Shown piece after piece: positions 19,868-62,700 of a stretch of 64,000 nt of DNA. The translations under genes and the position numbers were made by a program. Where the stretch lies: assembly GCA_944472155.2 (NCBI GenBank), contig OX235277.1, positions 41,556,758-41,620,757 of the forward strand, given 5' to 3'. This DNA comes from Trichobilharzia szidati. Lineage: Eukaryota > Platyhelminthes > Trematoda > Strigeidida > Schistosomatidae. Below the pieces are notes generated by a model. The model was given only the letters and a program-made list of their open reading frames with translations. It was not told the DNA's origin and did not search any database. Position 1 is the stretch's first letter, and the number at the start of each line of letters is the position of its first letter.

Positions 19868-20655
19868 AGTTCAACAACAAGTTGGCAGAAGAAGCATCAA
19901 AGATAGGACTTCAGGTGAACATAAAGAAAACAGAGGTGATGAAGATTCCTGGGCAACACCACCAACAGCAACAACAACAACAACAGACAACAATCAGCAT
20001 AAATGGAAGGAACCTGAAAGAAACAACCTCCTTCACCTATCTATCTGGGAAGCATCGTTTCAACTACAGGCGGAACTGACGAGGATATCAAAGCGAGGCT
20101 CGGGAAAGCAAGACAACCTTTCACTACTCTCAAGTCTGTGTGAAGGTCAACAGCACTCAGCGTGAAAGACAAGATATGGATTTTCAACTCCAATGTGAAG
20201 TCAGTCAGTTCTACTATACGGATCAGAGACTTGGGGCGTCATAAAGAGCATCTCAAACAAACTACAGACCTTCGTTAACAGTTGTCTTCGCTCAATACTC
20301 AAGATCAGATGGCCAGAAAAGATCAGCAACAGAGATCTCTGGGATCGAACCAACCAGGAACTGATTGTGAAACAAATAAGCAAGAAGAAATGGAGGTGGA
20401 TTGGCCATACTCTGAGGAAACCATCAAGTGACATCACTAGACAAGCCCTCGAGTGGAACCCGAAAGGGAAGCGGCGAGTTGGTCGTCCAAGGGTGACTTG
20501 GTGGAGGTCATGTGAAGAGGAGATGAAAACGTGTGGGCAGACTTGGAACCAGGTGAAGACTTTAGCAGAGAACCGAACGCAATGGAGACGCACGGCTGAA
20601 ACCCTATGTTCCTCTAGGAATTAAAGGAAACAATAATAATAATAATAATTAATAG
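19868..20655 (+). mobile_element. RTE-like LINE (family 1), 5'-truncated with (AAT)n tail
   Basis: The copy begins within the RT thumb (KLAEEASKIGLQVNIKKTEV), contains a CAA-repeat Gln run, and continues in several frames to the conserved C-terminus WRWIGHTLRKPSSDITRQAL and GRPRVTWWRSCEEEMK (frame 20367-20624). The protein ends RRTAETLCSSRN. The sequence then runs into an (AAT)n tail, the 3' end shared by all family-1 copies here. Confidence 0.8.
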
Positions 20656-39800: not shown

Positions 39801-42800
39801 GTGGGGAAAATCTATTTCGCATGATTTTTCTTAGTAGATTTAACTCTTCCTCCAAAGCATCAAGATTGCACATGGTGATAATCACAAACGTCTTAATTCC
39901 ACTTCATACCGCCATTATTATTTTATGCATTCACACCTATGATTTAATTCCCTCACCGGATATAATTTCTAAAAACCTCATACATACGATTGTACGGCTT
40001 GGCAACACATTCGCTGAAAAGAGTCTCTTTGCTGAATCACTTGTTTTGATTTTGTATACTGACATTTCAATAACCATCATGATTTTGTTCTTGTGATTTA
40101 TTGCATGTCGGCCCGAGTCAGTGAGTCTCTGGTTTACGTGTTATTTATGGTAATTGCATTCAGCAGTGTTATTTTTGTTACGGGTTTTTTGTTGTTGTTG
40201 TTGTCACTGCCTTTCCTGTTGTGATTTTTGTTGTTGTTCCGATTGCTTTACTCCTTATTTTCCTGATACTAAATTGGTCAACTTAAGAAGTAGCTCCTCT
40301 GTAACTTACATCTCTATGTAACAACTCCCTTCTCGGGCGTGAGGCTAGTAACCTCACCGTGTAAGGAAAACTGCTGTGGGAACTTCAGTACGATGAGTTT
40401 CCTTGCGACGAGAGAAAAGGTATGCGTGGGGACATGGAACCTCCGCACTATGTATGAGACTGGCAAAGCTGCTCAAATCGCAAATGAGATGAAGATATAT
40501 TGTATTGAGGAACTGGGAATATGTGAAAGCAGGTGGAATGGGAGTGGACTCACCAAATTTTCAACGGAAGAGTCAGTGATCTATTCTGGTCATCCAAAAG
40601 ACTACCACGAGCACACCGAGGGTGTGGCTATCGTGATGTCGCCAACGGCAGCGAAGGTCCTGATACAATGGGAGGCGATCTCGCCCAGGATAATGACCTC
40701 CAGATTCAACTCAAAATGAAAGAGACTGTCAATTATACAATCCTATCTACCCACAAACAACGCCGTCCTAGAAAAGAAGGAAGGGTTGTACAGGTAACAA
40801 TGGACAATATTCAATATGGATCAGAGACGTCGTGCATCCCGAAGGGCACTTTGAACAAGCTACACACCTTCATCAACAGCAGTTTTTGCTCAATACAACT
40901 CAAGATTAGATGGTCAGAAAAGATCAGTAAAAAGGATCTCTGGGAACGAACCAACCCAGCAGGAACCGGTTGTGCAACAAATATGCAGGAAGAAATAGAG
41001 GTAGATTGGCCATACTCTGAGAAAACAAGCCATCAAGTGAGTGAAATCACACTCCAGGCCATTGATCGAGTGGAACCCGGCCGAATGGGAAGCGGCGAGT
41101 AGTTGATCGTCAGTGCAAGGTTGACATGGGGGAGGTCATGTGAAGAGGAGATGAAAGGACGTGGGCAGACGTGGAGTCAGGTGAAAACGTTGGTGGAGAA
41201 TTGAACGCAATGGAGATGTGAGGCTGAAGCCCTATGTTCCTCTAGGAACTCAAAGACACAATAATAATAAATATAGTACATTTCAATGGAGATGTAGCTC
41301 GTCGATCAAGAAATATGACTGTTAATGGGGGAATCACAAGTTTGTGTTTCACATCATTTACTGGGATTTTTTTACCGGTCAGATGGTAGCAGTGGTCAGT
41401 AATTAATTTTTAATTCTATTATAGCTTGACACCACACACTATCTGCGATACAAGTATGGAATTTTCAGCATGTGATATCGGTAGCCCAAGTTTTGCAGGC
41501 CGACCATTGATATCGGGTGTGCGTCGACCGGGGATCGAACCCCGGACCATGTGCATGTTCGGTGAGCGTCCCAACCGCTGTGCCACCGACTCACATAGTG
41601 CAGATGTGGTTTATAGGATTTGGATTGTAGTCGTTATATCTACTAGAGTGTAGCTTGCTCTTGAGGTGGATTCCTATTGGTTCAGCTGTATATAGAAAAG
41701 GAATTCGTAAAGCAAAATTAAGATAAATAGGAATGCGATAAATAATTTTAAATGCTGTATTAACGCCAAACTTATGCTCACTATTTACAGGGTGTGCTAA
41801 AACAGAGCCACGAATAGATCTTGTTTGTCCTTCGCTCAACCATGTTGGATGATGTCAGGAAATACGATGATGAAGCTGCCTAATTGTACACCCTTTGTAG
41901 CTGGCTCCACAGCTGCAGTCAAACTGGTGGATACACACATAGAGGAGGCGAAATAAGTGGTAGTTTGTCCTTATTTCGCTAACGTAAAATAGGGAATGGT
42001 AGTGAAGAGACAACATATCTCTGCTACATAATAAACTCTTTTAACTGCATTCTTCTGGCGCTGTGTCACTATTTCGCTGATGTTGTCACCGAGAAACTAC
42101 AGTTTTATGAACAATGGGCTTTTTGGAGCTGTTGTTATACTAACTCTCCTTGGTGCCATATTCATATTTTTCTCAATGAACTTTTCTGGATAACCATTTT
42201 TACTGTCATTCTCTAATAATCTTAAGCTCCTCATTTAGGCAGTCGTTTGAGCAGGTTACCTCCTAGCTGTATGAACCAAACAGGTTACGTTTATATTTCA
42301 AAGGTGCAAAACTCAAAAAAGTATGATTATACTGACGTATTGTTGTAGGTTTCCTATACACACTCCTTCTTCATATGCCATCTCCTTTCCTTTCCAGAGA
42401 TGAGAATCTAATTGAAAAGTAAATCATGAGCTGACATTAGTTAGAGAACCATTGGAAAACCTGGGAGTACTGGACAGCTGTTTCGTCCTAGTTTGGAACT
42501 CTTCGTCAGTACGCACCCACCGGGATTCGAACCCAGCACCTTCTGGTTGCAAGGCGAGCTCGTATACCATTAAGCCACTGGGACCCAATCTAATGGCCTA
42601 TGAATTCTAACTTCTGCCAATTAACGACATAGCGCGACCCCTAGCCAATGTCTTCGGCGAGTCCTCCCAGGTTTTCCAATGGTTCTCTAACTAATGTCAG
42701 CTCATGATGAAATCCTGTTAACCAATCAAATCCCTACAAACCAACACTTGAAAAGTAAATATTTTTTTCACTCAATCCTTTTACTTTCTAAATGTCTAAA

Positions 42801-45588
42801 TGGGTATGTTTTTCCTATATTGAGATCAGTATGGGTCGAATTTAACTTGACTTGAAAAAGCCGCCTCCAAAGGCGAATGAATTGTTGTTTTAATGGATAT
42901 GATTGCTAAATCCCCTGCTATAAATGTGTTTATTTCATTGAAAAACATGAAACACTGGTATATGGATGACATAATAGTCATTTGTGATAAACCGACAGAC
43001 GCCATAGAAATCCTAACCCAGATCAATAGTCTACAAAACAGTGTATCGCTAACATACCTCGTTAAACAGAATAATGATGGCCTGCCATTTTTAGATGTAC
43101 TCATAACCCGCCGCCGATAAGATTGGTCAGTAAAACGACCTGTCTACAGAAAGTCCACATTGACGGGACAGTATCTAAATTATCATGGTTACTGTCCACT
43201 ACAGTATAAAAAGGCGTTGGTTGGTTAAGTGTTTGTTCAAACGCATTCATTCACCGTATATTTACTGCCGATACAATTGAAGAAGAAATACAATACGTCA
43301 CTGAAATATTGTTAAATAACAATTACCCGCTGAGATTTATTAGGCGTTACGGAAGCGTCAACCATAGAGCTCTACCAATCCAATCAGCTCCCAAAAGGGA
43401 TGTTTATATATCCTTGTCGTTCAGAGGTGATCAACGAAGTCTAGTCACTAGTCAAAGACTCAAGGCCGCATTTAACAGAGCTTATTATGTAGCTAAACTT
43501 ATCTTCATAGAGAAAACGAGAACTATACTGTCCTGTAAACCCTCACAACATCTGAACGATAGTGTCACATCCCATCGTGTTTAGCAATTTACATGTATGT
43601 GTGGACACATACATAGGGAGGACCCATCGGTCTCTGCAGGTTAGGGCTACAGAACATATTCCAAAGTGGCTGCAACAACAAATAAAATCACCAGACACAA
43701 TTGACCCCGGAAATAGATGTCCAACATCATCTATAGCGAAGCACATTATAGAGACAGGTCATAAAGTTGATTTCAATAATGCCTTTAAACCCATATATAT
43801 ATAAAATAAGGTTGGGACACATACTTAAATTTGTTGAGGCCTTGGCTATAAAAAGACTTAGACCTGTCTTATGTGTTCAAAAGTTATTTGTTATTACTTA
43901 TTTGGAATCAAAGATCAATTTACTTCATAATATTTTCAACCCCTTCTTTGCTTTGGTTTTTCTTTCTTACCCACACCTTTGCGTCATCTTCCGACTCATT
44001 ATTTGTGACCTTGACTTGTGCACAAACTGACCCGTATTGTAATGATTCATACCTTCTTGTCTTCTATAAAACTGTATGACAAGTACGTCTTTGTTTGTGA
44101 TCAGAATGTCCGAAATGTGTTGCGCAAATACACACTATATTACACGTCTTCTTATTGTGTCGTTGTCGAAATTCATAAAGAGAACTCTAATTGCTTTAAA
44201 CACTGATTGGTCATCAGTAATCATTTGCTAGCTATTATTGTATTATTATTATTCCCTTTAATTCCTAGAGGAATATAGGGCTTCAGCCTCACATCTCCAT
44301 TGCGTTCAATTCTCCACCAACGTTTTCACCTGGCTCCACGTCTGCCCACATGCTTTCATCTCCTCTTCACATGACCTCATCCATGTCACCCCACCATCGC
44401 ACTGATGACCAACTAAGTCTCCACTTCCCGTTCGGGTTCCACTTGAGGGCCTGTCTTGTAATGTCATTTGATGGCTTCCTCAGAGTATGGCCCACCAATC
44501 CACCTACATTTCCTCCTGCATATTTGTTGCACAATTGGTTCCTGCTGGGTTGGTTCGCTCCCAGAGATCTCTGTTGCTGATCTTTTCTGGCCATTTGATC
44601 TTGAGCATTGAGCTGTTGATGAAGGTCTGTACTTTGTTTGAGGTGCTCTTCATGACGCACCAAGTCTGTGATCCGTATAGTAGCACTGATTTCATATTGG
44701 AGTTAAAAATCCGGATCATATTTTTCATACTGAGTGCTGTTGACCTCCACACAGACTTGAGAGTAATGAAAGCTTGTCTTGCTTTCCCGATCCTCGTGCT
44801 TTGATATCCTCATCAGTTCCGTCCGCCTATAGTTGAAACGATACTTCCCAGGTAGGTAGGTGGGTAGGTGAAGGAGGTTGCTTCTTTCAGATTCCTACCA
44901 TTTATGCTGATCGTTGTCTGTTGTTGTTGTTGTTCTTGTCCAGGAATCTTCATCACCTCTGTTTTTTATGTTCACCTGAAGTCTTATCTTCTCTGGTTGC
45001 TTCTTCTGCCAACTTGTTTCTTTTCATTTGCATATCTTCCAGTTTGTGGGAAGTCAGGCATATATCATCGGCAGAATCCAGATCCTCCAAGTCTTTTGTG
45101 TGGGTCCATTTTATGCCTGTCTCCTAGTTGCCCGACCTGCTATCTGTCGCATTATCCAGTCTACTACCCGCAATCAGGAAAATCATTGGAGATAGTAGGC
45201 AGCCAGCCAGCCCTGTCTTACTCCCGTCCTCACTTCTTCGAAGGATTCCGTGAGTTTCCTGTTGTGGATTACTTGGCACACATTTACTAGCTAAAAAGTG
45301 GCTTATCATGTCATTACAAAAGTCTTCTGCATATATATTTTATTTTTAGATAGAGTGAATTTTTTCGCGTTTTATTGTTATAATTAGCCTAAAATTATTT
45401 CAAATCTTATTTGTTTCAAGTAGAGGTAGAACCTTGCCTGGAAAATACTATTAAAAATTTGAATGATAAAATCGATAATTTTGGATCACAGTTAACAAAA
45501 TTACTGGAAAGTCTACCACAGAATCCTAAGCCATCACGACCTCGTCCACGTAAATCGGAAACTCCCGCAGCAGCTAAAACTACCAATT

Positions 45589-45619
<31 letters not shown>

Positions 45620-48600
45620 CAACGCAACTGCTCCAAATACACCCAATGCAGCGCCAGCGGCAAAGTCAACACCTACTCCAAGAACTACACCTGCAAATAA
45701 ACCAAAAACTCCTGTTACACCAGCTGCTGCTGCTGCTAGCGGTGGTAACCAGTCAAAGTCAACTCCTAATAAATCGTCATCTGTACATTTCCCTGGAACT
45801 CAGTCGAACAATCAGACAGCCGAGTCAAAAGCGAAACCAAAGAATAAGGCAACTGAGTCATCGACAACAGGTAATTTTTATCTTTCATTTGTGTCACTTT
45901 AGCATCCTAGTTTTCTCCATTGACAAACAATGTACAGTTTCATTGATTATAGCTATGGCATTGGTACTTCACATTCAAACCGAGCGGTCGCATATGCGAA
46001 TCTCCTACCTCATACTAATCCTTAGGCAATGAGTTAAAACTCAACTATTAACAGGGAAATAGGTGTGTTTGTGTATATATAGTTAATCCGAGGTCTGGTT
46101 TATTATTGTGTTGTGTGAATTCGGTGCAGCTGTGTGTCTCATGGTGTCATGTGCTCGATTACTAATTCCTGCCGTCTACCTACCATGATGATTTGGGCAT
46201 TAATGTGGTAGTATCGTATCGTTAACTTGCGCACACGTCAAGTGCAGCACATTACCGAATGTGTACCTGGCAATCCAGTTGGTTTTTGAGTAACATTGTA
46301 TAATGTCATCTCTTGGTATTAGATGGTTGGAGGTAATCGGTCACAGGAAGCCTTAGACATAGGTTTCGTGCTAGTTGGTACTCACCAGTCGGCAAGGCGT
46401 ATATACAACCTCGAGGGAACTCATGTCCCTTCTGAGATTCAAACTTGCAGTGAGAGACGCTACTACTGAGCTATTCAGGCTCTCGATTGACCTCCTGTAG
46501 GACTGTATTAGATATTTTTGATTGGACACTGGTCAGTAACTAGTGTAATGTGTCTAGTTCTATCTTCGGTGCAGACTGAATTCTATCAGTCAGGTTTGCA
46601 ATGTGGCCACCATGCCAACAGGTGGCTCGCCATCACAGTGCACTGTGATACGCCTTGCTGATGCATACCAACTAGCACGAAACCCAGGTCAGGCAAGGCT
46701 TCCTATGGCCGATTGCCTCCAACCATCTAAGACGAACAATTCACAGTGTACCGTGATGGTGAGCCACCTAGTGGCACGGTGGCCACATTGCAAGGTTGAC
46801 TGATAAAATTCAGTCTACACCGAAGTAGGACTAGACACGGCACACTAGTTACTGACTAGTGTTCAATCAAAAACGTCATCTCTTGTTTGTTTTTTCAGTT
46901 ATAGTGGAAAAAGTTTATGCTGAAATTTCAGTGTTGATTATTTCGTCATTGAAAACCGGGAAGCACTGAACGGTTGTTTTGTCCTGGTGATCGGGACAAT
47001 GGTTTCCGATGCTCTCTGATTGTGATGTTGGTTATTGACGAAATTTGCATTGAAAGTATTCCAGGCTCCTACAAACATCCGTAATCTTAAATTTCAATCT
47101 CCAGTTCATTGATGGCAACTGGATGAATGTTCTGAAGTGGTGGTGTAGTGAGCAGTCGTCATTGTTGGTTGGTTTGAAGGCAGCGCTGTATGATAGCGAA
47201 CTGACAAAGTCAGAATTCACGGGTCCATTGGATTCCAGCCCAGGTGACTGAATGGTAAACGAGCCTGATCTCGGGCTCGATTCCTGGTAAGGTCTTGGGC
47301 GCGTACTGATGAAGAGTCCAAAACTAGGATGAAACAGCTGTCCAGTTCCCCCCTCCGCTAGTTTTCAATGATCTCTCTAACTGGTGTTGGTTCGTAGCGA
47401 AATTTTCATTCCAAGTAATTCGGACACCTTCAAAAAGGAATGCTAACAAGGCTCTGGTTATTTCATAATACTTTTGTAACAACAGAAGACAACGGCCAGG
47501 CAACAGATCGTTTATTGAAAAAATCAAAAGATATTTATAGATTTTTATGTACATTATTATTAGCATTATTGTTAGCAGAGAAGAAACGTCTTCTGATTGG
47601 TTGTTTTTCGCTGAAGTTTATTCTGTATTGCTTGTTAGGCCATATATCTGCGAATCGCACTTGCACACGTTAAGTTTGCTGTGATTGGTTGGTGATTTCC
47701 TCGAGGTTAGGTGTTGTTCTTGTTTTTTCTCATGACCAAGATTTGGGACGTAAACATTGATGTAAATTGCTGTCTACAATTTTAGCTTGCAGACAGCTGT
47801 CACCGCATTTAAACAGAATAGAAAGGCTGTCGATTGTATCCTAAGACAATAGCAGGAATTTATAAACGTTGTTTATTAAGTTTACAATCTGAGAGAGTCT
47901 TCTGCACTGTACTGTGCTGTACTGGAGTCATTGAAATTAACCTCCGATAATTGGAGAGATCCAACTGTGGGTCCCGCTAGTATTGATTTATGTTTTCCTA
48001 ATATTTCTTTATTGAAATGTATTCACTATGAATTCATCTGTGGAATTATGTGGTATGTGGCAGTTAGTTTATTGCGTAAGATCATATTTTTGTTAGTATT
48101 AACAATATTACAAAAATACATAGTGTTAAACTTGACTCGAATCTCTCACTGACTGACTGAAATGCTCAGTGTGTGTTGACACGTCGGGTGCTAGTACGCA
48201 AACGCCTCGATGATTATTGAAGCTCAACACCATGGTATCTGATAGTTGATGGGTGCTGGCCTCTAGCCTCAATGGGGCGCATCATTCACCACTTACTGGG
48301 AATGCAACTGACGAGTTCGTAATAGGCTGAACTGTCAGTCTGGGAAACACCATCAACCAAATATACAGTTTGCTTGTAAATTCCTTCACTTACTGACGTA
48401 CTGACTGGTTTTCAACTTAGAAATTGGCACAAAAGTTCAGCAGTTTAAGTTGCTACACTTCATGTAGCACACAAAATTAGAGAAATGTGAGGGTTCAGGA
48501 GTAACTAACATGGACAAACCTATTACTTTATTGGATATGGGTGATCACAAAGAGTGAATGCATCTGTGCCATTGTTAGCGACCCTAAACTATATTAGCAA

Positions 48601-51597
48601 TTCGTTTATAGCTTCCCGAGGTCCCCAACCAGCCTGCCTGCCAGCCAGCCTACATCTCCCTACCACATGACTCGAACCAACTGTCAAAAATTTCATGGGT
48701 TGATGGCAGGTTTTGGTTTGACCACCTTTTACTCTTTTCTAACCCAGCCCTATGTCAACTAACATTGCTTGTCGAGGAGGGTGATTGGTGGGTGTATGAA
48801 GCACGTTTCCTACCCAGCTCATTCGATGTGATTTCATAACCTCGTCGACTGGCTTTCCCTCCACTCTACGCCTAACCTCAGTCTTAGTCATCGTATTATA
48901 CCACTTAACACGAAAAATAGAACGCGAACATCTGCTTATTAAGTGTTTCATTTCGAAGGTTTTTTTTCGTACTGCACTGAGGTCATTAAAATTAACCTTC
49001 TAACTGCGAGTCTCACACTGGCACGTCTGTCTGTCTGTTTTCGACATAGAACTTTGCACATATGTGCGGCAGTTCAAGTCGCCACACTCCATGTAGCACA
49101 CAAAGCAAGAGAAGAAAGTAGAACAAATCCCTAATAGAGACAGCAAACAGAGGTGTGAGACAAAGGAATAGTAATAACGGAGAACAAAACAGTTTCATTG
49201 GAAATTATAAGTCACAAGGAGTGGATGCATCTGCGCTACTCATGGAGAACGATCACTTTGAGCCATATCACCAATTGTCTCCAGCCTTCATTGGTTTCTA
49301 CCGTCCCGAGGACCCCAACCAGGAAGCCAGTCTATACCTTCCTACATGGCTTAAACCAACTGTTGTGGATTTCATTGACTGCTGATGTCATGTTTTCGTT
49401 TGACCACCACTGGTTAACCCTTTTTCAACCTGACCCTATATCAGTTAACGTCGCCTGTCGTCGAGTAAGGCAATGACTGGGCGTGCGTAACACATGTCCT
49501 AACCATCTCACTCGATGTAACTTCACAGCCTCGTCTATTGATTTCCCCTCTTTACTTAACAGTCGACGCCTAACCTCAATATTGCTCACCTTATTATACC
49601 ACTTCACATGGGGCGAGATAGAACGCAGGCACCTATGATCAAAGACAGCTAATCTTTTCATGTCTTCCACTCTCAATGGTCAGGTCTCAGAGCCATAAAG
49701 GAGGACGCAGCGGACTGATGAGCAGTACACACGCCCTTTGGTCGACAGCCAACAGGATATCACGTCTACACCAGAGGCGGAGTAAACTGGCATATGCGAA
49801 AGTAGCCCTCTGTATCCGTGCTGAGAATTCGTCAGAGATCAACCCGTTGGGGCTGATGGTACTTCCAAAATAAGTGAAGCGGTCAACGTGCTCTACCACT
49901 TCACTTCCTATTTCTAATCTAGGAGTCAGTCCTGTAACATCATACATTTCGCGGGAGCGAATCGCATGCCAAACATTCGTAGATTGCAGCTCAAGGTGTT
50001 TAGAAGACTCTGCTCTATTTTGTCAGCGTCCTCGCCTAGAAGGACTATATCATCTGCATACTCTAAGTCAACGAAATTACACCCTGGTAACAAGTCAATC
50101 CCTGAGTCTCCGAAGTGAGTTAGGGTTAAGTCCATTAGTACATCTATGATGGAACTGAATAGAAGTGGGGATAATGGGCATCCTTGACGGACACCACTAG
50201 TCGTCACCACTTCAGATGACAACTCGCCGTAAACCCTCACCTGGCTGCATGAGTACGAGTAGAGTGCCTTAATCAGTGCAATGTATTTTCTCGGCATTCC
50301 CTTTACTTCCAAGCATCGCCAGAGAACCTCTCGGTCGACAGAATCGAATGCCGCCTTTAGGTCAAGAAATATAATGCTTGTTGGACGCCGGTAGGAATGC
50401 CTATGTTCTAGAATCTGTCGAAGGGTGAAGATATGATCAATACACCCTCTTTCTGGCCTAAAGCCTGCCTGGTTTTCTCGCGTTTCTGCCTCTGGCATTG
50501 ATTTATTTCTTTTTAACGAACGCCAACACTTTGACGATTACTGAAGACGGACATTGTGTTATTCGATTGGTGATGAAGTTTAAGACATTGGGTGTTGTTT
50601 TTGAGTCTTAGTGGGAAAATCACCCATCAGTCACTGAGATGATACATGCAGCTGATGAGTCCTGAAGAGAACAAATTGCGCATCCCGGTCTCGAATCCTA
50701 GTCACTATCAACCAAATATATAAAGTGGGCTTGTAAACTCTTTCATATAGATATTAGTTTGTATCATAAGAAAGTGACGTGCGTCGGTGGCACAGCGGTT
50801 AGAACGCTCGCCGACCGTGCACATGATCCGGGGTTTGATCCCCGGCCACGAACGCACTCCTTTACCTCGCTAAGCCAGAAATAATGCTGGTCAATAGGAA
50901 AGGTTGGGCATGAGGCTGGCTAGCAACCCTACCCTTTAAAATTAAACACTGCTACAGAAACTTCAAGCAACTAGCTTGAGGCCCTATGTTCCACTGGGAA
51001 CTTGAAGGACTCCTTTTAAATTTTCCTTTTTGTAATTAATTAATTATTTATAACATTTATGTGATTCAAAAATAGTTTCACATTTTCTCTCGGTACATTT
51101 CAGTTAAAGCATCTGACGATACAAATACAAATGCAGATTCTCTGTCTACAATCGATAGCGCCATAAACAAAGTATTATCACGTATCAATAAAGGCAAAGA
51201 TATTCATATCGGCTCTGTTCTACAAGAAAGATTGAGTGGTTGTGTCAATGGAAAAGATGCTACAGCAATCGACTATGATGTAGATATTGATTCCTCACCG
51301 CCGGCACCGCCAACACATATTGTCGAAGAGTATCGATGTCCTGTTGGATTGCCTAGAAGAAATCTTGTCGCCATATCACCAACTGTCTCGTTTACTGTGA
51401 AACCAGTTCAGAGTAGTGTACCGCCATCATCATCGACAAAGAGAGATTATTCATCAATAATCATAGAAGAGCATGATGATGTGTCGACGAACAGTGTGTC
51501 TGCTCAAGATGATTGTACTATAATTGATGTTCATACAAGTGGGGAGAAGAAAAAGAAGCATAAAAATAAAAGGAGAAAGCAGGACACACAGGAGTAA
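33485..51597 (+). CDS. Unknown four-exon protein, 441 residues, probably nuclear
   Basis: Coding exons 33485-33801, 36485-36549, 45421-45870 and 51104-51597 join with matching phases (2/1, 1/2, 1/2) and no internal stop. The start ATG gives MEALLAYVDVPPDCRDAIPL; it follows an acceptor and a 20-base leader, though the frame stays open further upstream. Residues 1-105 are mixed and may be folded, with NILFARLPDS and RLPFLRFSVRK. Exon 2 is charged. Exon 3 starts with a helical-looking stretch (LENTIKNLNDKIDNFGSQLT), then a long Thr/Pro/Ala/Ser/Lys-rich part with ten threonines at 185-194. Exon 4 contains PPAPPTHIVEEYRCPVGLPR, acidic-Ser regions and ends in a very basic KKKKHKNKRRK (about 426-436), a likely nuclear localisation signal. 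I do not recognise the family. The phase agreement across large repeat-filled introns makes the gene model strong; the function is unknown. Confidence 0.82.
33986..36209 (+). mobile_element. RTE-like LINE (family 2) in intron 1, with 11-bp duplication
   Basis: The insertion lies exactly between two copies of aatattaactg (33975-33985 and 36210-36220). It holds a 5' region of unknown origin, a long RT frame (34708-35862) and an AT-rich 3' region ending in an AAATA-type tail. The endonuclease is absent, so it is internally deleted or composite. It is in the same orientation as the host gene. Confidence 0.85.
34708..35862 (+). CDS. RTE-like reverse transcriptase, N-terminally truncated
   Basis: The frame is open for 384 residues. 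From about residue 30: CGCIDHVFTLRQLLEHR, VVFLDIRAAFDSLDR (block A), SGVRQGCPISPFLFNFAIDD (block B), LEYADDIVLLCD (catalytic YADD, block C), and the thumb to VYLGSCVSAGGGVTDEISNR. The C-terminus is VFDHRCLRRIACVRWHHRV, SEVRRRV and WWLGHVLRMSSQRLP, ending shortly after GTGWKRRRGGQS. The endonuclease domain is missing upstream, and the first 25-30 residues are probably not native. The polymerase residues are all present, making this the best-preserved LINE RT here. The class is RTE-like; SR2-type schistosome elements are the likely relatives. Confidence 0.85.
   Translation: MHNPSVLDFNEILTTIIIPCTVKGSPRSINCGCIDHVFTLRQLLEHRYTYWSPTIVVFLDIRAAFDSLDRTVLWNCLLERGVPEKFVNILKALYRNTSGRVRAYNQLSPLFSTNSGVRQGCPISPFLFNFAIDDILESALKDVREGGVDLLPGDRLFNLEYADDIVLLCDSMQAAQIALNQLAISVCKYGMCFAPSKCKVLLQDWQEPVPALTLAGEPLEVVDKFVYLGSCVSAGGGVTDEISNRIMKARVAYINLSHLWRRRDVSLAVKGRVYNASVRAALLYACETWPLRAEDVRRLCVFDHRCLRRIACVRWHHRVSNSEVRRRVFKHSVDHHSLSVVIWKHRLWWLGHVLRMSSQRLPYRSLFASPGTGWKRRRGGQSMT
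36485..36549 (+). CDS. Exon 2 of the unknown nuclear protein
   Basis: This 65-nt microexon encodes PEKVETKEDTEKVKDQSNET between acceptor cttttag and donor gtgagt. It completes the split Glu codon of exon 1 and leaves one base that, with exon 3, makes an Ile codon. Confidence 0.75.
36670..36910 (+). repeat. tRNA-headed SINE family B
   Basis: Head gagtggtccagcggtagaac (box A) and ccgggattcaatccccgg (box B), then cctcgctaagctg, the aaggttgggtatgaggttag segment, actgctacggaaacttcaa and the tail ccatgttccacatggaac. It lies in intron 2. Confidence 0.8.
37330..38140 (-). mobile_element. RTE-like LINE (family 2), 5'-truncated
   Basis: The minus strand reads EISARIQKVRAAFANLHHLW, VYCPAVRSVLLYGSETWPIR, then VFDHRCLRSLSHVRWYNKVS and NVEVRRRV (frame 38121-37813), followed by a broken C-terminus and a 3' region ending in cagacagacag near 37340. 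Confidence 0.78.
38480..40061 (-). mobile_element. Penelope-like element with inverted termini
   Basis: Ends 38485-38650 and 39885-40055 are inverted copies (gattcagcaaagagactctt; tacaatcgcatata; ttatattccgtgaggaaatt). The minus strand between them keeps LEEELNLLRKIMRN, a GIY-YIG remnant (VLSKRVKEHYPV) and the tail SFYKAKNDLPKSLRIRFNCV and ALLIEIEKPDLCIQKKFVQ. The RT is not present. A family-A SINE is inserted at 38671-38930. Confidence 0.72.
38671..38930 (+). repeat. tRNA-headed SINE family A with inverted ends
   Basis: Box-B-like GGGTTCGAACCCC is followed by the family body. The left end 38671-38712 is an inverted copy of about 38842-38886 (ggttctctaactgtgatatc ... gatcaactcgtg). The box-A part is lost, because the left inverted end joins directly to the segment after box A. 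Confidence 0.72.
40062..40071 (+). repeat. Target-site duplication, left copy
   Basis: acatttcaat here and at 41278-41287 flank the SL-headed retrocopy exactly. Confidence 0.9.
40072..40107 (+). other. Spliced-leader relic (36 nt)
   Basis: Starts aaccatcatg and ends tgatttattgcatg. Aligned without gaps to the known 36-nt Schistosoma mansoni spliced leader (from memory), 30 positions agree. The six differences, at positions 5, 9, 11, 16, 17 and 29, are all transitions. It includes the terminal ATG of the leader, and what follows is not the SL-RNA donor (gtaag), so this is a spliced product and not an SL gene. Confidence 0.85.
40393..40719 (+). pseudogene. RTE-like LINE endonuclease N-terminus
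   Basis: The frame starts MSFLATREKVCVGTWNLRTM, the typical EEP endonuclease opening (the Asn of WN is a catalytic-site residue), continues with EELGICESRWNGSGL (Glu metal ligand region) and SGHPKDYHEHTEGVAIVMSP, then stops at 40719 by frameshift. The sequence soon jumps to the RT C-terminal region. Confidence 0.8.
40790..41275 (+). pseudogene. RTE-like LINE C-terminal fragment
   Basis: Frames read YGSETSCIPKGTLNKLHTFI, IRWSEKISKKDLWERTNPAG and GCATNMQEEIEVDWPYSE, equivalent to 20230-20640. A frameshift before the GHTLRKPS motif and further stops make it non-functional. The 3' end is ccctatgttcctctaggaac, then a short AAT tail. Confidence 0.75.
41413..41597 (-). repeat. tRNA-headed SINE family B, subfamily with attached repeat
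   Basis: On the minus strand from 41597: gtgagtcggtggcacagcgg (box A), a box-B-like GGGGTTCGATCCCCGG, then a direct jump to the segment also seen at 17770-17880 (ttgcaggccgaccattgata). Confidence 0.7.
41591..42260 (-). mobile_element. Penelope-like element endonuclease fragment
   Basis: Minus-strand blocks in order: LNEELKIIRE, a FASSMCV segment with a degraded GIY-YIG (GASYKG-like), then the frame 41839-41591 reading MSEGQTRSIRGSVLAHPVNS and EHKFGVNTAFKIIYRIPIYL. The last block matches 63548-63901. Stops and frameshifts are present. Confidence 0.7.
42421..42755 (-). repeat. tRNA-headed SINE family A with perfect 45-bp inverted ends
   Basis: Bases 42423-42467 and 42664-42708 are exact reverse complements. 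The minus-strand interior has box A (TGGCTTAATGG), box B (GGGTTCGAATCCC) and the hammerhead-like core (ctgacgaagagttcc, aggacgaaac, gctgtcc). Confidence 0.85.
42840..44215 (+). mobile_element. Penelope-like element, RT C-terminus plus endonuclease
   Basis: Frame 42893-43120 holds HWYMDDIIVICDKP (RT catalytic YxDD) and NNDGLPFLDVLITR, a typical PLE end of RT. After frameshifts come STLTGQYLNYHGYCPLQYKK and a frame at 43309-43584 with TILSCKPSQHLNDSV. Next is the GIY-YIG domain YIGRTHRSLQVRATEHIPKW (43562-43804) and ETGHKVDFNNAFKP. This is the most complete PLE coding region in the window, but it needs at least three frame changes. Confidence 0.8.
44236..45300 (-). mobile_element. RTE-like LINE (family 1), 3' half
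   Basis: Minus-strand reading: GLAGCLLSPMIFLI (degraded block B), LDSADDICLTSHKLEDMQ (block C with ADD), EVMKIPGQEQQQQQTTISIN, GRNLKEATSFTYLP, IKARIGKARQAFITLKSVWR, VLLYGSQTWCVMKS, KIRWPEKISNRDLW-like and LRKPSNDITRQAL. The 3' end at 44260 is followed by an ATT-repeat tail. Several frameshifts; no complete ORF. Confidence 0.8.
45421..45870 (+). CDS. Exon 3 of the unknown nuclear protein (low complexity)
   Basis: Opens after acceptor tttcaag with EVEPCLENTIKNLNDKIDNF, then the basic-proline segment NPKPSRPRPRK, a polythreonine run encoded by an (ACT)n microsatellite (about 45591-45620), and Ala/Pro/Thr/Lys-rich sequence up to donor acag|gtaatt. It leaves one base that joins TT of exon 4 to form Val. 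Confidence 0.8.
45591..45620 (+). repeat. (ACT)n microsatellite in coding sequence
   Basis: About ten ACT/ACC units encode threonines 185-194 of the unknown nuclear protein. Unit changes would alter length without shifting frame. Confidence 0.9.
46318..46873. repeat. Foldback repeat with long inverted arms
   Basis: Bases about 46514-46654 (tttttgattggacactgg ... tcacagtgcactgtga) are inverted at about 46739-46873. In addition, the spacer 46654-46737 is an inverted copy of 46318-46402 (ttagatggttggaggtaatc ... gtcggcaaggcg). The structure is therefore an inverted pair of one longer repeat with part of the interior rearranged. It has no coding content. Confidence 0.8.
47222..47405 (+). repeat. 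tRNA-headed SINE family A
   Basis: Box A TGACTGAATGG, a degraded box B (gggctcgattcctgg), then gcgtactgatgaagagtcc, actaggatgaaacagctgtc and gatctctctaactggtg. Core GAAA is retained, with GGAC changed to GGAT. Confidence 0.65.
47475..47807 (-). repeat. Solo LTR (gypsy type)
   Basis: About 333 bp sharing end-to-end homology with 52002-52308, 53799-54126 and 62205-62521. On the minus strand the LTR starts near TGCGGTGACAGCTGTC and ends GTTGTTACA, with TATAAATAT and a nearby AATAAACGATC. No internal element is next to it. A clear duplication was not seen. Confidence 0.75.
48180..48380 (+). repeat. Sm-alpha-like repeat with decayed hammerhead
   Basis: Contains CTGACGA (48308-48314), gttc, a loop, ggct and gaac, in the order of a hammerhead ribozyme core with substitutions. 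It ends in atcaaccaaatata and cttgtaaattcctt, shared with 50700-50745. Schistosome Sm-alpha satellite/SINE repeats are known to encode hammerheads. The GAAA box is GAAC here, so cleavage is not expected. Confidence 0.5.
48400..48960 (-). mobile_element. RTE-like LINE (family 2) fragment
   Basis: The minus strand holds CSRSIFRVKWYNTMTKTEVR and SHRMSWVGNVLHTPTNHPPR, equivalent to the C-terminus of 49015-50505, then the 3' region. It is truncated and diverged, and lies directly upstream of the next copy's 3' end. Confidence 0.65.
49015..50505 (-). mobile_element. RTE-like LINE (family 2), RT half
   Basis: The minus strand runs from inside RT to a 3' end with cagacagacag near 49030. It has one long intact frame (50498-49926), a frameshifted thumb (49947-49687) and the C-terminal frame 49676-49425 (VFDHRCLRSISPHVKWYNKV, then GHVLRTPSHCLTRR). 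Frameshifts make it inactive. Confidence 0.82.
49926..50498 (-). pseudogene. RTE-like reverse transcriptase core
   Basis: 190 residues without a stop: ENQAGFRPERGCIDHIFTLR, IIFLDLKAAFDSVDREVLWR (block A), SGVRQGCPLSPLLF (block B), LEYADDIVLLGED (catalytic YADD) and MRFAPAKCMMLQD. The catalytic aspartates are present. The frame breaks after the palm, and the N-terminal endonuclease is absent. Confidence 0.85.
50560..50760 (+). repeat. Sm-alpha-like repeat with decayed hammerhead
   Basis: Has gcagCTGATGA (CTGATGA at 50652-50658), gtcc, tgaaga, gaac, aaattgcgcatc and ccgg. The layout matches the schistosome hammerhead core, including the short GCGC-type stem III, with about four substitutions, one of them in the GAAA box. 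It is followed by atcaaccaaatatataaa. Confidence 0.55.
50779..51012 (+). repeat. tRNA-headed SINE family B, best-preserved copy
   Basis: Head gtgcgtcggtggcacagcgg and ttagaacgctcgccgacc, box-B-like ggggtttgatccccgg, then cctcgctaagccag, aaggttgggcatgaggctgg, cactgctacagaaacttcaa and the tail ccctatgttccactgggaac. The middle and tail match the 5' untranslated region and the 3' terminus of the family-1 LINE. Confidence 0.85.
51104..51597 (+). CDS. Exon 4 (last) of the unknown nuclear protein
   Basis: Follows acceptor acatttcag. Encodes SLSTIDSAINKVLSRINKGK, the Pro-rich SSPPAPPTHIVEEYRCPVGL, an acidic/Ser segment (SIIIEEHDDVSTNSV) and the basic C-terminus KKKKHKNKRRK before TAA at 51595. The frame is intact. 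Confidence 0.82.
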
Positions 51598-62544: not shown

Positions 62545-62700
62545 ATGCTCGCCTTGTAACCAGAAGGTCCTGGGTTCGAATCCCGGTGGGTGCGTACTGA
62601 TGAAGAGTCCCAAACCAGGACGAAACAGCTGTCCAGTACTCCCAGGTTTTTCGATGGTTCTCTAACCGATGTCAGCTCATGATGAAAATCCTGTGACAAA
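62545..62700 (+). repeat. tRNA-headed SINE family A with best hammerhead-like core
   Basis: Box-B-like GGGTTCGAATCCC is followed by CTGATGA (62597-62603), gtcc (62607-62610), a 7-nt loop, ggac (62618-62621), GAAA (62622-62625), acagctgt and a GTC (62631-62633). The order is that of a type-I hammerhead core, but with three extra bases (aga) between CTGATGA and stem II. The box-A part is truncated. Confidence 0.75.

Follow-up and report, generated by a model that had tools for sequence, protein, structure and literature searches.

A 10-bp target site duplication (TSD) in the genome of the avian schistosome Trichobilharzia szidati encloses a copy of the 36-nt spliced leader (SL) exon followed by the remains of an RTE-like LINE, and we propose that a LINE transcript was SL trans-spliced and then entered the genome by target-primed reverse transcription (TPRT), a reading to which we give a probability of about 0.93. 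The insertion lies within the 64-kb stretch of DNA that was analyzed (the window; C7:41556758-41620757 of an assembly of 1,113,721,179 bases). An initial annotation of the window had placed the SL at the 5' end of the reverse-transcribed RNA and had supposed a LINE that was first trans-spliced and then mobilized; the position of the SL, between the TSD and an acceptor AG, supports this proposal.

Anatomy of the insertion

Table 1. Features of the SL-tagged LINE insertion, with coordinates in the 64-kb window
Feature	Coordinates	Strand	Basis
Left TSD acatttcaat	40062..40071	+	exact match to 41278-41287
Genomic copy of the 36-nt SL exon (SL relic)	40072..40107	+	likeness to SL
RTE-like LINE 5' UTR from the putative trans-splice acceptor on	40108..40392	+	native ~240 nt upstream missing
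LINE ORF start, endonuclease-like N-terminus, decayed (in-frame stop)	40393..40812	+	translation; homologous copies continue into RT
Internal deletion junction	40812..40814	+	comparison with 12 copies with both sides
RT C-terminal region and short 3' UTR	40814..41259	+	matches in fetched copies
AT-rich (AAT)n-type tail AATAATAATAAATATAGT	41260..41277	+	sequence
Right TSD acatttcaat	41278..41287	+	exact match to left TSD

The two 10-bp copies of the TSD are identical, lie precisely where they were first annotated, and enclose both the SL relic and the LINE 3' end; a like repeat (a 10-mer with its left end fixed and lying no more than 35 nt from a random right point) arose in 99 of 200,000 random trials. 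The SL relic begins directly at the left TSD and stops exactly at the SL exon/donor boundary. It matches the S. mansoni SL at 30 of 36 positions without a gap, exactly as initially described, and each of the six mismatches is a transition. This score is far above the maximum of 25/36 obtained with 60 first-order Markov sequences of 200 kb each, and the second-best SL-like place inside the window scores 21/36.

The annotation had also raised the concern that the leader of this species might be very different from the S. mansoni sequence used for the comparison. The genome has two arrays of SL RNA-like genes, each with its own leader, at C6:10981067-11052476 and C7:63657837-63975812. The C6 array, with a repeat unit of ~1.13 kb, is the main SL RNA array, and its leader (AACCGTCACGGTTTTACTCTTGTGATTTATTGCATG) fits the insert at 31/36, the five differing sites being G5A, C9T, G11A, A16G and C17T; the C7 array carries a variant SL. 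The C6-type gene copies that were read have the donor GTAAGA, with the exon ending ...TTGCATG immediately before it. Genome-wide, 181 places lie within three mismatches of the S. mansoni leader, and a reversed control gave none.

Downstream of the SL, the annotated RTE-like 5' UTR, endonuclease start and LINE 3' end were recovered as a 5' UTR, an ORF start, an RT C-terminus and an AAT-type tail. The ORF contains GTWNxRTM...LGICESRWNG, which we take to be an endonuclease-like motif; a Pfam search for an endonuclease gave no match for this N-terminal piece, nor for those of the related copies L027 and L023. Among longer copies, the L011 ORF matches RVT_1 in Pfam (E 5.5e-15) and the L025 ORF has no match. 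Heterobilharzia americana has the best named protein homologue, and those of the molluscs Pomacea and Elysia and of T. szidati itself come next. The RT C-terminal part has matches in 13 of 20 fetched relatives, mostly at 75-80% identity, and further copies within the window at 44236-44678 and 20216-20642. The very short 3' UTR with an AT-rich trimer/tetramer repeat matches a trait of RTE elements (PMC1291365), and the schistosome RTE-clade LINEs SR2 and SR3 similarly have a short AT-repeat 3' end, with TSDs of 10-12 bp for SR3 that are comparable to the 10 bp seen here. The term 'spliced leader' has zero occurrences in that paper, whereas the T. szidati insert has an SL.

Relative to 12 copies with both sides, ~1.6-2.2 kb is missing from the insert, comprising the rest of the endonuclease and most of the RT, a loss for which either a deletion or cis-splicing of the same RNA had been suggested. 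Relatives in register read ...ACAATACTC directly before cag... and ...gctact directly before ATACGG... at the breakpoints, where inspection by eye reveals a short TACT-like microhomology and, in those of the 12 relatives with both sides that are in register, no GT...AG. Cis-splicing was rejected on this ground, and of the two possibilities it is the deletion that the loss looks like.

LINE relatives, the acceptor AG and a duplicate locus

The best 40 of 16,555 candidates were scored, and beside the window and a locus designated L002 these comprise 38 other places that match the LINE 5' UTR with 77-83% identity, from which 20 were fetched. All 20 have other sequence at the SL position, and most share a native AU-rich 5' UTR of ~240 nt there, the alignment being judged by eye. 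The 10-nt segment to the right of the junction is kept in 15 relatives and absent from five. An acceptor AG just before the tcggcccg segment in full-length LINEs, suggested as a check on the initial annotation, directly precedes the joined segment in 11 of the 15 relatives that retain it (consensus catgcccaAG, followed by T) and is missing from L014, L022, L026 and L027; the family junction motif is AG followed by T(C/T)GRCCC. Because relatives carry both the native ~240-nt 5' UTR and an AG at the point of joining, the SL appears to have replaced an outron at a splice acceptor.

In eight of these 15 relatives at least the preceding 100 nt contain no other AG, as would be anticipated ahead of a 3' splice site, and the remaining seven have another AG 6 to 72 nt upstream of the junction. 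A long AG-free stretch was dropped as a general trait when an early count of three in four copies fell to 8/15 once all were included. The A of the acceptor is conserved in 14/15 and the G in 12/15, with a mean of 0.85 for neighbouring columns; the AG is thus no better conserved than its surroundings and nothing shows selection for the site. The acceptor of this family, cccaAAG, has no U-rich tract and is weak compared with UUNYAG, the form that has been reported at the SL acceptors of flatworms (PMC12582326). The exact source copy of the insert was not found among the best 40 of the 16,555 candidates, where the closest relative is 83% identical.

L002 is the sole other match across the whole insert among these 40. 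It lies inverted on the same chromosome at a distance of 4.4 Mb, shares flanks with the window over ~2.7 kb at 88% identity, and retains both TSD copies and the internal deletion; its SL has four differences from the C6 SL, all of them common to the window copy. L002 is a segmental duplicate of the window insertion, and since it shares the TSDs, the deletion and the SL differences, the insertion, the SL and the deletion are all older than the duplication. The initial annotation had proposed a genome search for SL-like 36-mers followed by this 5' UTR, with the caveat that a single event might be found. The SL-LINE junction pattern occurs at two places, the window and L002 (none in a reversed control), and as one duplicates the other there is a single SL-LINE event in this family; an amplified SL-headed LINE subfamily was rejected because the two junctions represent one event. 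Repeats in the flanks, examined in a search for an empty-site paralogue, stop at or a few bases from the junction and are therefore uninformative on the empty site.

These data bear on two other explanations of the insert. The 36-mer is complete and adjoins the TSD, as it might if the whole LINE family had gained an SL-like 5' end and transposed with it; however, 20 of 20 fetched relatives (from the best 40 of 16,555 candidates) have other upstream sequence and the junction pattern is present at two places that reflect the same event, making this explanation very improbable. We attach equally little weight to the ideas that the likeness is due to chance, that the assembly is chimeric here, or that a LINE landed next to an old SL relic. 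Repeat-rich genomes misassemble easily, a point raised by Boroni et al. for S. mansoni (PMC5832876), but the SL score far exceeds that of random sequences, the TSD encloses the SL, and a second locus, whose flanks are homologous at 88%, has the same structure.

Other SL relics in the genome

A pattern for the 3'-terminal 27 nt of the leader, with a following GTAA excluded, identified 28 places in the genome and none in a reversed control. Twenty relics were inspected (17 newly fetched, together with L030, the window and L002), and the remaining eight have matched strings identical to inspected ones. The leader match is only 27-29/36 in L068, L073, L074, L076 and L077, and L076 resembles an SL RNA pseudogene. 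Parent acceptors were checked for four SL relics or relic families; L065, L068, L071 and L074 are without an assigned source.

In L030 an SL that matches the S. mansoni form at 35/36 is followed by ~700 nt of repeat, and the TSD is tacccga, which lengthens to as much as 11 bp when the first four bases of the SL are included. The repeat presumably includes an RT C-terminus, recognized by eye, and a Pfam search of L030 gave no match. All 39 other scored copies of this family (of 1,936 candidates) were inspected, and 35 contain native upstream sequence, ending in an AG of the gaaAG-before-CGG type in 34 (L091 has GG); the family junction is AG followed by CGGATGCC. The AG would be meaningless if the family started at CGG, and this was ruled out by a 5' end ~180 nt upstream of the junction in 16 of 20 longer-flank copies, beyond which the flanks differ. 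L030 thus represents a second, LINE-like family with the SL exactly at the AG.

Three other insertions of the L030 family (L083/L098; L086/L099, with duplicate L102; and L104/L121) have TSDs and no SL, and begin no more than 2 nt from the AG-CGG acceptor.

L067, which has a C6-type SL and five local copies, and L064, whose SL is nearest to the C7 type (31/36), share a third, unclassified repeat. Of 456 candidates for this repeat, 35 other copies were scored and 18 of those fetched; 17 of the 18 have the AG. They read ...ttcgCAG before G, typically ...ttctatttcaaaatttcgCAG before GAACGCC, a textbook 3' splice site, and the family junction is CAG followed by GAACGCCG. No TSD was found for L064 or L067; a 9-nt repeat considered for L067 sits inside the family sequence, and no TSD is therefore claimed for either.

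L066 provides a positive control, in which a frame for a short-chain dehydrogenase (Pfam adh_short, 2.3e-27) comes after the SL. Used as a query, it identifies three separated exons on C4 with 98-99% identity that are joined in L066, and the first exon of the parent gene is immediately preceded by ...gttatttatttcAG (...atttatttcAG). As the SL is joined at the acceptor AG of the parent, at least this relic marks the trans-splice acceptor of a retroposed mRNA. The process recurs in this genome, in the RTE-like family of the window, the L030 family, the L064/L067 repeat and the dehydrogenase gene of L066.

This recurrence is pertinent to the manner in which the SL and the LINE were joined. Template switching, a proposed route for LINE chimeras such as U6/L1 (PMC13174262), would require the RT to have jumped from LINE RNA to SL RNA during TPRT, and the three SL-less L030-family insertions indicate that 5' ends can arise near the acceptor without an SL. 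However, a jump onto SL RNA should carry over its 3' part, whereas the traced cases stop at the exon boundary with no SL intron, and the element-side AG is seen in all three families and the gene control; we therefore regard template switching as improbable. Ligation of a free SL exon, as RNA, to a broken LINE RNA has likewise been proposed for U6/L1 (PMC13174262), but it does not predict a LINE-side AG in independent families and seems to us more improbable still. A ribozyme-made 5' end was rejected when Rfam searches of L078, L030, L011, L012 and L015 gave no match near the junctions; these five sources contain just two sub-threshold matches, both in the L015 flank.

Two groups of relics, L070, L072 and L075 with L124, and L062, L063, L073 and L077, have the ~120 nt immediately 5' of the SL in common, although what comes after the SL is not the same in every member. 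The upstream piece of L124 (C8:173704700-173705250) has no Pfam match and presumably derives from a BEL/Pao pol, as it reads like one (NGQVWYLPH). These observations suggest chimeras between an LTR element and an SL mRNA, with the junction at the 5' end of the SL. Open frames follow the SL relic in L061, L069, L070/L072 and L075, and these resemble suppressor of fused, PIG-B, dipeptidyl peptidase III and an ABC transporter; in Pfam the L075 piece has a sub-threshold SMC_N match alone.

Proposed route and relation to known systems

Judging from the structure of the insert, an RTE-like LINE transcript was probably trans-spliced with the SL at the RNA level in a blood fluke, such that ~240 nt at the start of the 5' UTR would have behaved as an outron, with the 36-nt SL put in their place at the AG. 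The LINE machinery, either its own or acting in trans, would then have used this SL-headed, internally deleted RNA for TPRT, and reverse transcription at the nicked target presumably reached nucleotide 1 of the SL and left the 10-bp TSD. The deletion may have been present in the RNA already or may have arisen during insertion, in either case before the duplication that, on this scheme, gave rise to the inverted copy 4.4 Mb distant on this chromosome. Since SL addition takes place on RNA, an SL-tagged insertion records the entry of a LINE RNA into the trans-splicing machinery; it also marks the acceptor used, and such tags allow retroposition of both host mRNAs and mobile elements to be counted in trans-splicing animals.

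We think it possible, if rather doubtful, that SL trans-splicing is a regular step for some blood-fluke retroelements, with the 5' UTR as an outron, the SL-capped form as the translated mRNA and the unspliced form as the usual template for transposition. SL-tagged insertions would then be infrequent leaks, each deprived of the upstream (promoter) region. The upstream part of the 5' UTR is absent from the insert, and if the promoter resides in that part the copy would be incapable of transcription.

In S. mansoni, Boroni et al. 2018 (PMC5832876) describe six cases in which a genomic SL exon is fused to a (retro)transposable element; they suggest that the elements were trans-spliced and retro-transcribed, and keep open the possibility of a chimeric assembly. 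The passages that describe the six give neither TSD nor acceptor evidence, whereas the T. szidati insert has both. A 2025 study of 24 flatworms (PMC12582326) found 597 mobile-element-associated SL loci, beside LTR and LINE elements, and offered reintegration of trans-spliced retroelement transcripts as a possibility while setting these loci aside. They were described as partial leaders and discarded, whereas the present insert has a complete 36-nt leader with a TSD and a native acceptor, and recurrences were traced within the one genome. Since these flatworm papers already suggest SL-tagged reintegration, the kind of event is known or foreseen and the value of the present insert lies in its clean anatomy. 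A published guess, that flatworm retroelement transcripts gain an SL and reinsert, here becomes a case that is legible at the level of single bases from TSD to SL, acceptor AG and LINE. Literature searches of titles and abstract openings found no published TSD-bounded SL-LINE with a traced acceptor.

Leader-tagged retroposed RNA is also known from dinoflagellates, in which SL relicts in retrogenes show that a retroposed trans-spliced mRNA keeps its leader as a tag (reviewed in PMC6050394). The dinoflagellate relicts concern host genes and a different leader, whereas in T. szidati the tagged RNA is the LINE's own. Mammalian chimeras of mRNA exons and LINE-1, reported in 2026 and ascribed to cis- or trans-splicing (PMC13174262), resemble the T. 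szidati insert in having a spliced 5' exon joined to a LINE before TPRT, but involve ordinary gene exons rather than a dedicated SL. In Hydra, ~30% of transposon Iso-Seq reads carry SLs (PMC12220107), and about a third of trans-spliced genes in Heterodera co-align with repeats (PMC6362198).

The window also contains three type I hammerhead ribozymes above the Rfam threshold, at 62594-62639 (+), 42467-42512 (-) and 47303-47348 (+), the first two of which sit in copies of one repeat. An Rfam match to mir-3492 at 49804-49881 (+) is just over its threshold and is possibly a repeat-derived hairpin.
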